Part shown: in pieces, positions 1,429 through 16,919 of the stretch
Layout of the letters: each line of letters opens with the position of its first letter
Numbering within the stretch: the stretch's first letter is position 1
The notes under the pieces: generated by a model
Databases searched by the model: none
What the model saw: the letters and a program-made list of their open reading frames with translations, nothing else
What the model was told of the DNA's origin: nothing
Program-made: the position numbers and the translations under genes
Assembly (NCBI GenBank): GCA_016936735.1
Contig: JAFGXH010000102.1
Coordinates: 1 to 37,815 of the forward strand
Origin: a bacterium
Lineage (GTDB): Bacteria > UBP6 > JAFGXH01
Direction: 5' to 3'
Length of the DNA: 37,815 bases

Positions 1429-3285
1429 ATGAAAAAAAGCTTTTTAATTATGTTGCTATCACTAATTTTAATATCCTGTGATAGTACAAAAGAGAGTAAA
1501 AATGATTTTGACTGCTCTCAATGTAATTCAGAAACAGAGGTGTGTAATTTAGATGAACAAAAATGTGATTTAAAATCTGTTTTTGATTGCTCTCAGTGTG
1601 ATACAACATATCAATCCTGCAATCAAACTGACTCGAAATGCGATCTTCTATCAGGAAAATGTCTTGATAATAGCTCTTGTAGAGAAGAGGAGGAGTGTAA
1701 TACAACAACTCATCAATGTGAACAAGTTGTTATGGGTGAAACTATATATGAAGTTAGAACAAAAGTATACTCTGAAGGAACAACTGTAACTGTAAATGGG
1801 ATAGTTACTGGAGTGGTTTATAATGGAGAGTTGATTCAAGGGGTTTTTATACAAGAGAGTGGAGATAGTTATAGAGGAATCTATATATACTTTAAAACAG
1901 CAGGTACTAAAAATATTAATATTGGTGATAAAATATCAATGACTGGTGTTTATACAGAGTATTATCTTTTATCAGAGATTGTTTCTGATACAATTGATTC
2001 AATTTCAATAACATCATCAAATAATCAGATATTTGAACCAAAAGATATAACAGCCTCCTCAATATCAACAAATCAGGTTGAACCATATGAATCTATGATT
2101 GTAAGAGTAAGAGGTGATTTTACTGTTGGCTCAGAATCAAGTGGAAATCTTGCAATTACAGATAACTCTGGAGCAAAATTCTCTTTAAGAAAGGATATTT
2201 TTTCATATAATCTATCATCTGGAACAAAACTTACAGAGATAGTAGGAGTTTTAACATATCACTATCAAGAGTATAAAATATTACCAAGAAAAATAGAGGA
2301 TTTAGTTGATCATTCTCAATTATGTAATACAATTGAGTGTGGTAATGGTGAGATTTGTGTTGTTGAGAATGAGACTCCATCATGTATTTGCAATCAATTA
2401 GATGGATACTATCCATCTGAAGATATCTGCCTTAATCCTTGTGAAAACACTCCTTGTGTTGAGGAGAATAGAAATAGATGTAATCCAGAATCTGCAACTC
2501 AATTCACTTGTCTTTGTAATAGTGGATTTCAAGATAATAATGGTATTTGTGAAGCAGTTCCATATTGCAATCCAGAAATATACTCTTCAGCTTTTGGTCT
2601 AAAAGGACAAGCTCTTGCAGATGAGTTAAAAATAATTGTAAATAGAAATTTTAGTTCTTGGGGATATGATGATGGCCGAATTGCAATGTTTAGTTATATT
2701 GATAATGATAATGGTACAATCATGTGTATTTATACTGGAGAATATGGTTCTCATCCTTATGTAGATGATTTTAATTTACTTCATAAAGGATGTGATGGTT
2801 GTGCTGATAAACCAGCTAATGAAATTTGGAACTGGGAACACACATGGCCTGATTCTCAATTAAGTGACCCAAATGCAGAAGCAGATTTACACCATCTTTT
2901 TCCAACAAGAGCTTATGTAAATTCTGCAAGATCAAATTATCCTTTTGATAATGGTGGTTCTGATAAATATTGTGCAGATGGCGTTAATGGTCCAAGTTCA
3001 TGTACTGGATATGATTATATTAGTTATAGAAATGGTTCAACATCTTTTGAGGTTGCAGATCAGCACAAAGGAAATACTGCAAGAGCAATGTATTATATGC
3101 TTATTAAATATAAAACATTTGCAACTTATATAAATAGTTCTCAATTTACTGTTTTAAGAGCTTGGCATTCTCAAGATGAGGTTGATTTAAAAGAAAGAAG
3201 CAGAAATGATAAAGTTGAAATGTTTCAACACAACAGAAATCCATTTGTTGATTGCCCTCAGTTTGTTGATGCCCTTTATCAATAA
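1429..3285 (+). CDS. Modular secreted lipoprotein nuclease (OB-fold, EGF-like, endonuclease I)
   Basis: A 618-residue lipoprotein: the signal peptide ends in the lipobox LISC with lipidated Cys17. Residues 17-95 are Cys-rich modules. Residues about 98-290 resemble the OB-fold found at the N-terminus of ExeM/YhcR-type extracellular nucleases. Residues about 298-382 hold two EGF-like Cys clusters. Residues about 383-618 are an endonuclease I (EndA/NucM family) domain. Its active-site region is visible as W469-E-H-T-W-P with His471, then DLHHLFPT (486-493) and N498-SARSN503, which are the metal and phosphate ligands of the family. It should cut DNA or RNA non-specifically at the cell surface, for nutrient or phosphate supply, biofilm DNA turnover or predation. 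The start is supported by GAGG five bases upstream. The catalytic domain looks intact. Confidence 0.88.
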   Translation: MKKSFLIMLLSLILISCDSTKESKNDFDCSQCNSETEVCNLDEQKCDLKSVFDCSQCDTTYQSCNQTDSKCDLLSGKCLDNSSCREEEECNTTTHQCEQVVMGETIYEVRTKVYSEGTTVTVNGIVTGVVYNGELIQGVFIQESGDSYRGIYIYFKTAGTKNINIGDKISMTGVYTEYYLLSEIVSDTIDSISITSSNNQIFEPKDITASSISTNQVEPYESMIVRVRGDFTVGSESSGNLAITDNSGAKFSLRKDIFSYNLSSGTKLTEIVGVLTYHYQEYKILPRKIEDLVDHSQLCNTIECGNGEICVVENETPSCICNQLDGYYPSEDICLNPCENTPCVEENRNRCNPESATQFTCLCNSGFQDNNGICEAVPYCNPEIYSSAFGLKGQALADELKIIVNRNFSSWGYDDGRIAMFSYIDNDNGTIMCIYTGEYGSHPYVDDFNLLHKGCDGCADKPANEIWNWEHTWPDSQLSDPNAEADLHHLFPTRAYVNSARSNYPFDNGGSDKYCADGVNGPSSCTGYDYISYRNGSTSFEVADQHKGNTARAMYYMLIKYKTFATYINSSQFTVLRAWHSQDEVDLKERSRNDKVEMFQHNRNPFVDCPQFVDALYQ

Positions 3286-3507: not shown

Positions 3508-5481
3508 ATGAGTGACTATAACATAATAAAAATTTTAAGAAAAAGAGAGGCAACTACAACATTTTTAGCAGAGAAAATAACTGGCGAAAAAGTTATTATT
3601 AAAAAATTTCATATCTCTGAATCTAAAGATTGGAAATCTGTTGAACTTTTTAAACGAGAGGCAGAGACACTAAAATCATTAAGACACTCAGAAATTCCAC
3701 AATATTTGGAATTTTTTAAAGATGATGAGGATGGAACTTTCTCGATTGTTCAAGAGTTTATTGATGGAGTCTCTTTACAAGAAAAATTAGATGAGGGTGC
3801 TATTTTTAAAACAGATGAGATTGAAATCTTTTTAAAAAAAATAGTTCAAATACTATCATATTTACAATCATTTACCCCTCAAATTATTCATAGAGATATA
3901 AAACCATCAAATATTATTTTAAAAAATGGTGATTTAAAAAATCCTTCATTAATTGATTTTGGCTCAATTCAGAGAGCTGTATCAAATGATTTTACTATTG
4001 TAGGAACAACAGGATTTTCAGCACCAGAACAGGCAACAGGAAGAGCATTTCCTCAAAGCGATTTTTATGCACTTGGAACAACATTACTATATATTCTTAC
4101 AAAAAAGGAACCAATTGATATTCCATTTGAAAATATGTGTTTTAAATACAAAAACATTGTTAATCCTCCTCAAAATCTGTCAAATTTTATTGATAAAACC
4201 ACCTCTTTTAATCCATCTGAACGACCACAAACAACAGATGAACTTTTAGAGATATTAAACTCAATAAATAAAATAGATAGTATTAATACTATTTTTAGTG
4301 TAAAATTAGATAATACTAAACAAAAAAACAATACATCACAAAATAATCAACTAAAAGTTGTAATTATTTCTGCTCTATTTTTTATGTTTTTAAGTGGATT
4401 TATTCTTTTTTTTGTTACAGCAAAAGCTCCTTTAGAATCAAAAATATCTCCTATTGCTAGACCTCAATTAATATCTTCAGAAAAACCTAGTATACAAAAA
4501 AGTAACTCAATAGGAATAGAGAGTTGTATTCAAAAAGAGTGTAGAACATACAATTTAAGTTGTGATGAGAACAGTCTTTTAAATATGACAACATTCTCTT
4601 GTAATGATCAGAGTATTACAACATTAAATGGAGTTGAGAAATTAAAAAATCTGAAAAATCTATATATTTATAATAATAATATATTAGATTTAAGCCCTGT
4701 TTCAAAACTTGAAAACCTTGAAAAAATCTCAATGGGTAAAAATAAAGTGGCATCATTAGAACCACTTAAAAATCTTAAAAAATTAACCCATATAACAGCT
4801 TATGATAATAGTATTACAGATTTAAACCCTTTAAAAAACTTAACTCAACTGGAGGAGCTTGTTATTTGGAAAAATCCATTTAAAGATTTAGCACCACTAT
4901 CATCTCTTAAAAATTTAAAAATTTTGGAGATATCTCATAATAAGTCAATTGAATCTATATCAGTACTTAAATCTCTTGAAAAACTTAGAATATTCAAAGC
5001 CTCTTATTGCTCTTTGGGATCATTAAATGGATTAGAAAACTCGAAAAATTTAGAGACTCTTGATGTAGCCTCTAATAATATAATGGAGCTATTACCACTT
5101 TCAGGATTTAGATTTTTGAAATCAGTATCAATAAATGATAATAAAATATCTGATTTATCCCCTATATCTGAATCTGAAAACATAAGCTATATTCAAATAA
5201 GCAATAATCAGATTTCAGATTTATCTCCACTAAAAAAAATGACCAAAATGGATACTATTTGGGCATATAACAATCAAATAGAGGATATTTCTATTTTAAA
5301 AAATATGATATATCTAAAATCTGTTAGTTTATGGAAAAACAGAATTAAAAATATATCCCCATTAAAAGAGATTGGGAACCTAAATAAATTAGATCTTTCA
5401 GGAAACTGTGTTAATGATTTTTCAGAACTAAAACATTTAGAATCTATATTAAAAAAAGATAAACAGAATAGTTGTAATTAA
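3508..5481 (+). CDS. Transmembrane Ser/Thr protein kinase with C-terminal leucine-rich repeats
   Basis: A 657-residue receptor-like protein. Residues 1-260 form a Hanks-type kinase: Lys32 in VIIK, Glu51 of helix C, catalytic loop HRDIKPSN (128-135, Asp130), DFG (150-152) and APE (172-174). The glycine-rich loop is degenerate (ILRKREATTTFLA, no GxGxxG), so ATP binding may be atypical, although all catalytic residues are present. A single membrane helix spans about 283-304. A Cys-containing cap (about 340-366) follows, then about a dozen 22-residue internalin-type LRRs (about 371-645) predicted in the periplasm. The likely role is sensing an envelope ligand through the LRRs and phosphorylating cytoplasmic targets. 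AAGAGG precedes the start. The co-directional gene 100 bp downstream has a degenerate receiver and could be a partner; this is inference. Confidence 0.88.
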   Translation: MSDYNIIKILRKREATTTFLAEKITGEKVIIKKFHISESKDWKSVELFKREAETLKSLRHSEIPQYLEFFKDDEDGTFSIVQEFIDGVSLQEKLDEGAIFKTDEIEIFLKKIVQILSYLQSFTPQIIHRDIKPSNIILKNGDLKNPSLIDFGSIQRAVSNDFTIVGTTGFSAPEQATGRAFPQSDFYALGTTLLYILTKKEPIDIPFENMCFKYKNIVNPPQNLSNFIDKTTSFNPSERPQTTDELLEILNSINKIDSINTIFSVKLDNTKQKNNTSQNNQLKVVIISALFFMFLSGFILFFVTAKAPLESKISPIARPQLISSEKPSIQKSNSIGIESCIQKECRTYNLSCDENSLLNMTTFSCNDQSITTLNGVEKLKNLKNLYIYNNNILDLSPVSKLENLEKISMGKNKVASLEPLKNLKKLTHITAYDNSITDLNPLKNLTQLEELVIWKNPFKDLAPLSSLKNLKILEISHNKSIESISVLKSLEKLRIFKASYCSLGSLNGLENSKNLETLDVASNNIMELLPLSGFRFLKSVSINDNKISDLSPISESENISYIQISNNQISDLSPLKKMTKMDTIWAYNNQIEDISILKNMIYLKSVSLWKNRIKNISPLKEIGNLNKLDLSGNCVNDFSELKHLESILKKDKQNSCN

Positions 5482-14966: not shown

Positions 14967-16919
14967 ATGAGAGGATATCTATTTATTTTAATTATTTCTA
15001 GTTTTTTTCTAACATTAATAGGTTGTAATGATTCAAATGAATCATTTGTTTGTACTCTTTCTGGTGAAGTTTGTGGTGTTGATGGGGTAACATACACAAA
15101 CAAATGTGATGCTGATAATGCAGGAGTTTCTGTTGCCTATTCAGGAAAATGTGAAACACCAACATTTTGTGCATCAACCTCAGATTGTCCACCTAATTTT
15201 GTTTGTGAAGATATTGCTGGAGTTAAAAAATGTGTTGTTGATAGTGAATGTGATGTAGATTCTGATTGCTCTGGTGAAATCTCTATAGATTGTATTGGAG
15301 CTCATTGGGAGTGTCAAAGTGGAAGCTGTATTGAGAGTTGTGGTTCTGAATGTCCAGATATTATGTGTGCCATTGATTGTGAATTTGGTTTTAAAATAGA
15401 TGAAAATGGCTGTAGTATTTGTGAATGTGTTGAAGCAACAGTTTGTGAACAGGATTCAGATTGTCCAGAGGGATTCTTTTGTGCTCTTATGGATTGTGCA
15501 GATGAGGTAGATTGTATTGGTGGTGGAGTATGTTATCCAAAAGAACAACCAGAGTGTGATGAGAATACTCCTTGTGCTTTAGGAGAGGTTTGTGTTAATG
15601 GTGTTTGTGAAACTCAAAATTGTGATTGTCCAACACTTTTTGCTCCTGTTTGTGGAGAAAATGGTATAACTTATGGAAATGCATGTTTTGCAGCTTGTGA
15701 TAATGCTATTATTGCTCATGAGGGAGAGTGTGAAGAGATTTTATGTGAAAGTGATTCAGATTGTCCAAATGGTTTTTTCTGTGCATTAGTTGACTGTTCT
15801 GATGATGATGTTGATTGTTTAGGTGGTAGTATTTGTATGCCAATTCAAAATAATTGTCCTCATGAGTGTGATTCAGATATTGATTGTGATGAAGGATTTT
15901 TTTGTTCAACTATTCGTTGCATTACAGATAGTGGCTTAACAGGCTCTGTTTGTGAAAAAAAAGTTGAATGTGAACCTATTTTATGTGATTTATATTGTGA
16001 ATTTGGCTTTATTTTAGATGAAAATGGATGTGAAATTTGTCAATGTAATGAACCACATAATATTTGTTATAGTGATGATGAATGTCCTGATGGGCAATTT
16101 TGCCATTTAATGGAAGATGTTGATTATGGCTATTGTCAACCAAATGAAATTGAGTGTAGAGTTGATAGTGATTGTGAGTCAGGAGCTCAATGTTTGAATG
16201 GATTATGTATAATTAACTTTTGTCCATCAGAATGTGAAATTGATTCTGATTGTGGAGATGGTTTCTATTGTTCTCAAATATACTGTTTAACACCTGATGG
16301 AGTTCCTGGAACTGAGTGTGTTATGGAGTTTGAATATTGCGAATCTGATTTGGATTGTTCTGAAGGTGAATATTGTCTTGATGGATTATGTTTTGTTCAA
16401 TCAGCCTGCTTTCATGATTGTGACTCAGATAGAGATTGTGAAGAGGGATTTAGTTGTATTCAACTTGATTGTTTAACTGTTGATGGTGAAACAGGTTCTG
16501 TTTGTGAGTGGAATAATCAATGTGAAGATTTAACTTGTGATCTATATTGTGAATTTGGTTTTCAAGTAGATGATAATGGATGTGAAATCTGTGTTTGTAA
16601 TCAACCAGATAATATTTGTTATAGTAATGATGAATGCCCTGATGGATACTATTGTGAATTTTTAGATGGTTGTTATTTAGATGAGAATGGAGAGATAGTT
16701 TGTGTTGATTATGGTTATTGTCAACCAAATGAAATAGAGTGCAGAGTTGATAGTGACTGTTTTGATAATGAGGTTTGTATAGATAATATCTGTATGGATA
16801 ATAGTTATCAATGTACTCATGAATGTGACTCCAATAGTGATTGTGTTGAAGGAGAGATTTGTGAAGCAATTCGTTGTATAACATCTGATGGTCAACAGGG
16901 TTCTGTTTGTAGTTTCTAG
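14967..16919 (+). CDS. 101-cysteine lipoprotein with Kazal- and antistasin-like modules
   Basis: The start is ATG 14967, which has a GGGGG ribosome site and lies after the predicted transcription start. The product is 650 residues with lipobox LIGC (Cys20). I count 101 Cys in the protein, about one in six mature residues, the lipidated one plus 100 that could pair. Modules in order: a Kazal-like unit (CGVDGVTYTNKC), DSDC/EB-type units, an antistasin-like unit (CAIDCEFGFKIDENGCSIC), a second Kazal unit (CGENGITYGNAC), then alternating DSDC units and two more antistasin-like units. Kazal and antistasin domains are serine-protease inhibitors in animals, so surface protease defence is one possibility; adhesion or an architectural disulfide rod are others. 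Function is unproven. It should be surface or periplasm anchored. Its stop overlaps the stop of the convergent peptidase gene. Confidence 0.85.
   Translation: MRGYLFILIISSFFLTLIGCNDSNESFVCTLSGEVCGVDGVTYTNKCDADNAGVSVAYSGKCETPTFCASTSDCPPNFVCEDIAGVKKCVVDSECDVDSDCSGEISIDCIGAHWECQSGSCIESCGSECPDIMCAIDCEFGFKIDENGCSICECVEATVCEQDSDCPEGFFCALMDCADEVDCIGGGVCYPKEQPECDENTPCALGEVCVNGVCETQNCDCPTLFAPVCGENGITYGNACFAACDNAIIAHEGECEEILCESDSDCPNGFFCALVDCSDDDVDCLGGSICMPIQNNCPHECDSDIDCDEGFFCSTIRCITDSGLTGSVCEKKVECEPILCDLYCEFGFILDENGCEICQCNEPHNICYSDDECPDGQFCHLMEDVDYGYCQPNEIECRVDSDCESGAQCLNGLCIINFCPSECEIDSDCGDGFYCSQIYCLTPDGVPGTECVMEFEYCESDLDCSEGEYCLDGLCFVQSACFHDCDSDRDCEEGFSCIQLDCLTVDGETGSVCEWNNQCEDLTCDLYCEFGFQVDDNGCEICVCNQPDNICYSNDECPDGYYCEFLDGCYLDENGEIVCVDYGYCQPNEIECRVDSDCFDNEVCIDNICMDNSYQCTHECDSNSDCVEGEICEAIRCITSDGQQGSVCSF
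15969..16793 (+). repeat. Duplicated antistasin-DSDC supermodule
   Basis: Copy A (15969-16208, 80 codons) and copy B (16521-16793, 91 codons) share the order CDLYCEFGF..DENGCEIC, NICYS.DECPDG, YGYCQPNEIECRVDSDC. Their starts are 552 bp apart. DNA stays close around the YGYCQPNEIECRV block (16120-16176 and 16704-16760). Copy B has an 11-codon insertion in its middle. This is internal gene growth by segmental duplication. Confidence 0.8.

Follow-up and report, generated by a model that had tools for sequence, protein, structure and literature searches.

A bacterial lipoprotein composed of antistasin, Kazal and DSDC modules with one predicted inhibitor loop

The 37,815-nucleotide stretch of bacterial DNA analysed here (the window) encodes a 650-residue lipoprotein built from small cysteine-rich modules, of which three are antistasin-like, two Kazal-like and fourteen of the DSDC type. 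We propose that the protein is a lipid-anchored, acidic stalk held together by disulfides, which carries one plausible inhibitor head, the second Kazal module, directed at a protease other than trypsin. We put the probability of this reading at about one half. It is supported by the identities of the modules, their even cysteine counts, the retention of aligned cysteines in an ortholog, the acidic P1 residues of the antistasin modules, the loop frame of the second Kazal module, the recurrence of DSDC modules, and a VKOR-DsbA fusion encoded in the genome.

The open reading frame at positions 14967-16919 of the forward strand starts with ATG, and its translation contains 101 cysteines (15.5%), compared with about 0.9% in the 12 other large open reading frames of the window taken together. 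At its N-terminus, the protein has a lipoprotein signal, MRGYLFILIISSFFLTLIGC, containing the lipobox FLTLIGC, in which LIGC (residues 17-20) fits the bacterial pattern [LVI]-x-[GA]-C and residue 20 is the lipidated cysteine. The paralog (MKGYLFILIIFSFLLSLTGC) and the ortholog have signals of the same form. The lipid anchor and the cysteine content of about 16% claimed in the earlier note are both borne out. Asparagine at position +2 after the lipidated cysteine specifies the outer membrane in E. coli. By this E. coli rule, on which the assignment depends, the protein would reside in the outer membrane, from where it may be displayed on the cell surface. A search of the genome did not find LptD, and the same search also missed most control genomes. 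The protein has a net charge of -128, a pI of about 4 and an Asp plus Glu content of 22%.

An ortholog from the same genus (L011; the same contig is also L030) shares 70% identity with the window protein over an alignment of 534 residues. All 84 of the 84 aligned cysteine columns are kept, and dN/dS is about 0.32 (NG86). These values show that the modular reading frame is not a product of chance; it is real and coding, and the gene is under purifying selection. The L030 record (DYRY01000013.1) is labelled Anaeromyxobacter dehalogenans, yet it has 28.8% G+C in the stretch examined and comes from a same-genus relative; the species assignment can hardly be correct. The paralog is located on contig C112 of this genome. 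The number and order of DSDC and antistasin modules differ between ortholog and paralog in the C-terminal half, whereas the first approximately 270 residues align throughout, as expected of a stalk of variable length.

The window gene is preceded by an ABC-F ATPase gene and followed by a convergent S24/signal-peptidase-like gene, whereas the paralog adjoins a YifB/ComM-like gene and the ortholog a PgeF-like gene, both named from sequence. Since the neighbours differ among the three copies read, gene context gives no function. A promoter scan gave nothing beyond chance, and plasmid records gave no match. Elsewhere in the window, positions 1429-3285 (forward strand) encode a 618-residue lipoprotein with 32 cysteines, in which cysteine-rich/EGF-like modules are combined with an ExeM-like region and an Endonuclease_1 domain. 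This lipoprotein is probably a membrane-anchored extracellular DNase. Positions 3508-5481 (forward strand) encode a 657-residue protein in which a protein kinase domain is fused to leucine-rich repeats.

One of the 101 cysteines belongs to the lipid anchor, and the remaining 100 are distributed over 19 modules with four or six cysteines each. This arithmetic had escaped the earlier note. The module boundaries were set by eye, and the even counts hold for the modules so delimited. A single odd cysteine plus even modules is what self-contained disulfide modules predict, and we infer that the cysteines pair into about 50 disulfides. The features of the gene, all on the forward strand, are:

14967-15026, forward: lipoprotein signal peptide, lipobox L-I-G-C20, Asn at +2 (translation; same form in paralog and ortholog)
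15027-15152, forward: Kazal module 1, residues 21-62, four cysteines, lacking CysI and CysV, loop of six residues instead of seven (Kazal_2, 24.7 bits, cut-off 22.8)
15153-15350, forward: DSDC modules a and b, residues 63-128 (cysteine parity map)
15351-15428, forward: antistasin module 1, residues 129-154, Ala at the P1 position (PF02822; P1 by alignment to antistasin and hirustasin)
15429-15620, forward: DSDC modules c and d, residues 155-218 (profile scan, cysteine parity map)
15621-15734, forward: Kazal module 2, residues 219-256, canonical six cysteines, loop C-P-T223-L-F-A-P-V-C, P1 Thr (Kazal_2, 34.0 bits; PDB 1an1, E 1.5e-7; Foldseek 1an1, TM by target 0.87, 1.0 Å)
15735-15968, forward: DSDC modules e and f, residues 257-334 (cysteine parity map)
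15969-16046, forward: antistasin module 2, residues 335-360, Asp at the P1 position (PF02822; alignment)
16047-16520, forward: DSDC modules g to k, residues 361-518 (Dickkopf_N, 30.1 bits; DUF7107, 27.7 bits; cysteine parity map)
16521-16598, forward: antistasin module 3, residues 519-544, Asp at the P1 position (PF02822; alignment)
16599-16919, forward: DSDC modules l to n and stop codon, residues 545-650 (DUF7107, 28.5 bits; cysteine parity map)

The three antistasin modules belong to Pfam family PF02822, which they match with an E-value of 1.4e-22 and 80.3 bits (gathering cut-off 21.2). A profile of nine antistasin modules, taken from the window protein, its ortholog and its paralog, matched only leech antistasins in the PDB at E-values up to 1, namely antistasin, bdellastasin, guamerin, hirustasin and gigastasin. 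The similarity to the leech family (PF02822/IPR004094) is to the C-terminal antistasin subdomain. In a longer profile, the DSDC module aligned with guamerin and hirustasin in their N-terminal subdomain (E-values 3.3e-5 and 9.8e-5), with a different spacing. A DSDC module and an antistasin module together may thus be equivalent to one full two-subdomain antistasin domain.

The window protein differs from leech antistasins in being bacterial, lipid-anchored and arranged as a 650-residue array, and also in its putative reactive sites. The alignment column that corresponds to P1, as is established for the leech inhibitors, contains Arg, Lys or Met in the reference motifs (antistasin CRVHC, bdellastasin CKVKC, guamerin CMIFC, hirustasin CRIRC), whereas modules 1, 2 and 3 of the window protein contain Ala, Asp and Asp. 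None of the three has the Arg, Lys or Met characteristic of inhibitors of trypsin-, factor Xa- or elastase-like proteases, which makes inhibition of trypsin, factor Xa or elastase less likely and does not affect the membership in the fold. Among 49 distinct bacterial antistasin modules, the P1 residue was Asp in 19, Glu in 7, Thr in 6, Ala in 5, Lys in 4, Gly in 3, Asn in 2, Leu in 2 and Arg in 1, so that 26 (53%) are acidic and 5 (10%) basic. Position P1' is Leu in 42 of the 49.

Neither Kazal module was listed in a Pfam scan of the whole protein; scanned in isolation, both exceeded the Kazal_2 cut-off. By sequence, Kazal module 2 matches the leech-derived tryptase inhibitor (LDTI, PDB 1an1). 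Judged by cysteine number and spacing, it is the only one of the two with the canonical six cysteines and CysIII six residues after P1. In Kazal module 1, the CysI-CysV bridge is absent and the loop is shortened. Only one of the five animal-type modules keeps an intact inhibitor loop. The P1 residue of this loop is Thr in the window protein and Glu in both ortholog and paralog, while its frame is kept (P2 Pro, P2' aromatic, P4' Pro, P5' Val). In 20 bacterial Kazal loops, P1 varied more than any other of the 19 positions (2.91 bits). This variability is in itself no proof of selection on specificity, because further exposed positions come close to it (2.87, 2.68 and 2.67 bits).

With 3 and 6 input sequences, the AlphaFold models reached mean pLDDT values of 52.8 (residues 20-275) and 68.8; we consider them low-confidence and used only the local match of Kazal module 2. 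This part of the model superposes on LDTI with the fit listed above and on silk protease inhibitor 2 (SPI2) with a TM-score of 0.83 and 0.9 Å (Foldseek). Foldseek matches to follistatin (whole model, rmsd 17 Å) and to colipase-like proteins were disregarded. Kazal module 2 thus resembles Kazal-type inhibitors (PF07648/PF00050; LDTI, SPI2, ovomucoid) in its six cysteines, canonical spacing, loop frame and model fit. It differs from known inhibitors in its P1 Thr, and module 1 in the missing disulfide and shorter loop; an inhibitory role would be a prediction from sequence. The combination of two Kazal-like and three antistasin-like modules with DSDC modules, which the earlier note had recognised, holds by per-module profile searches and comparison to PDB sequences, and for Kazal module 2 also by fold. 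Of the structure prediction it called for, the match of this module to LDTI stands, whereas the whole models are of low confidence, so that the rod shape of the protein is a conjecture.

The DSDC modules score above the cut-off as Dickkopf_N and also match DUF7107. Their spacing, C-x5/6-C-x5-C-x4/5-C, resembles that of Myxo_Cys_RPT (TIGR04201), Dickkopf_N (PF04706) and DUF7107 (PF23416), but the window protein, though close to it, remains below the curated cut-off of TIGR04201 (16.1 versus 25 bits; single repeats reach 21.7). Counted by profile searches, this genome contains five TIGR04201 repeats above the cut-off, and most of the 89 listed at E-values up to 1 are below it. DSDC/Myxo_Cys_RPT-like repeats occur in many open reading frames of the genome, on contigs C196, C118, C301, C364, C299, C279 and others.

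The genome encodes a VKOR-DsbA fusion (L046:1023-2300, contig C201) with a CPYC site and an EGF-like linker, whose EGF_2 score is just below the cut-off. In addition, it encodes a protein with tandem DsbA-like domains in one reading frame with CPFC and CPYC sites (L044:190-1944, contig C181), and further DsbA-family proteins. These genes support a capacity for the strong periplasmic oxidation that production of the protein had been claimed to require. The 650-residue lipoprotein is a demanding test substrate for oxidative folding by VKOR-DsbA.

Based on these features, a mode of action can be proposed. The protein would be made via the lipoprotein pathway and oxidised by the VKOR-DsbA system. 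Its DSDC and antistasin modules would mainly form a stiff, protease-resistant, acidic rod, from which Kazal module 2, perhaps alone, may present a substrate-like canonical loop to a serine protease. The target would accept Thr or Glu at P1, and would be a subtilisin-like or Glu-preferring protease rather than trypsin or factor Xa. The earlier suggestion of a surface protease inhibitor survives in the canonical loop of Kazal module 2. It is weakened by the inspection of the P1 residues, which are Ala, Asp and Asp in the antistasin modules and Thr, or Glu in ortholog and paralog, in Kazal module 2, and by the shortened loop of Kazal module 1.

The same residues can be accommodated by a purely structural or adhesive cysteine-rich coat, in which the Kazal and antistasin folds serve only as stable modules with no protease target, while cations, surfaces or other cells are bound through the acidic face. 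We regard this as a substantial but tentative alternative. It agrees with the high negative charge and acidic content of the protein, the non-canonical loop of Kazal module 1, the acidic antistasin P1 positions, the variable number of modules, the unconserved P1 of Kazal module 2 and the many DSDC-bearing reading frames of the genome. The main evidence against it is that two inhibitor families occur in the same proteins beyond background and that Kazal module 2 has an intact loop frame and a model that fits onto true inhibitors to about 1 Å. Kazal motifs were found in 13 of 36 antistasin reading frames, a few of which represent the same protein in duplicate or truncated form, versus 3 of 556 other reading frames of the same loci. 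This co-occurrence is more readily explained by a common inhibitor function than by the random use of spacers, and also speaks against the reading that we prefer.

A multi-headed inhibitor would use its Kazal and antistasin modules alike to block subtilisin-like or Glu/Asp-specific proteases, which would come from predators, competitors or hosts, and its role would be analogous to that of ecotin and the EPI proteins of oomycetes. The family identity of the modules and the co-occurrence of the two families agree with it, and the frequent Leu at P1' could reflect a binding constraint, but may equally be a core residue. Given the P1 residues and the shortened loop of Kazal module 1, we consider it unlikely. 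It is very improbable that the protein is a follistatin- or Dickkopf-like receptor or decoy whose cysteine-rich modules bind a signalling peptide or protein. The Dickkopf_N profile match and the best whole-model Foldseek match, follistatin with an E-value of 1.7e-4, point that way, but with a TM-score of 0.17 the latter is no real superposition and the model is of low confidence. Furthermore, no partner gene was found, and the neighbours read beside the three gene copies differ. A stalk with a single inhibitor head is the reading that we prefer.

Antistasin-like domains have been described as largely restricted to animal genomes, with 97.8% of InterPro entries being eukaryotic (2025 paper, PMC12482156). 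A small non-eukaryotic share is already in InterPro. A tree of the 26-residue modules would not be expected to resolve, a limitation also described in a paper on Naegleria. Prokaryotic Kazal domains are known, for example from a sponge-associated thaumarchaeon (PMC6697440). Our literature search, which omitted most subscription journals, found no paper that names antistasin together with Nannocystis and none on bacterial antistasin arrays. A "Kazal" match in a Baksan metagenome was the author name Kazalov.

PF02822 exceeded the cut-off in 54 of 193 genomes around Nannocystis exedens (G291) and in 40 of 143 around an uncultured bacterial carrier (G294); the two samples overlap, are centred on carriers and do not represent a bacterial average. 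Around the genome studied here, antistasin was found in 2 of 290 genomes, both from the same genus, and in no other member of the phylum that was searched, whereas Kazal_2 was found in 10 of 31. The 13 loci obtained in a strict-pattern scan of 84,980 species belong to Nannocystis, further Myxococcota, two Flavobacteriales and an uncultured bacterium whose protein has the arrangement [Kazal-antistasin-DSDC]x6. The "animal-type" label of the earlier note should be used with reservation, given how frequent antistasin is around the two carriers.

The proteins of Nannocystis and its relatives, and the [Kazal-antistasin-DSDC]x6 protein of a metagenome-assembled genome (O_MB67, L039), resemble the window protein in that several have antistasin beside Kazal and DSDC modules and many have a lipoprotein signal. 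Those of Nannocystis have one antistasin module each, some with P1 Lys. Across these bacterial proteins, the order and number of modules differ from those of the window protein. At Nannocystis loci L031, L032, L034, L035, L037 and L038, antistasin genes form a tandem pair, of which one member has P1 Asp or Asn (DLF/NLF). The second has P1 Lys (KLL) in most loci, and would be the better candidate for a trypsin-type inhibitor. A 1043-residue secreted protein of Flavobacteriales (L036:3014-6142) contains one antistasin and one Kazal-like motif among repeated cysteine-rich modules.

The lipid-anchored array that combines these modules, with acidic residues at antistasin P1 positions, is a new variation on known protein types, and the frequency of antistasin around Nannocystis is the more surprising result. 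PF02822 is far commoner in the sampled bacteria than the nearly animal-restricted view suggests, and the origin and spread of the antistasin fold become testable. We speculate, with considerable doubt, that these proteins represent a broad and largely unstudied bacterial antistasin class with a Myxococcota-like centre and spread to other phyla, whose modules typically have an acidic P1 and Leu at P1' and share lipid-anchored arrays with Kazal modules. Such arrays would act on acidic-P1 or subtilisin-like proteases, unlike the enzymes that leech inhibitors target, as envelope armour in predator-prey conflict. If so, the antistasin fold would not be an animal invention. If the proteins inhibit proteases, they would constitute a new bacterial envelope defence; if they do not, inhibitor folds would have been reused as disulfide building blocks.
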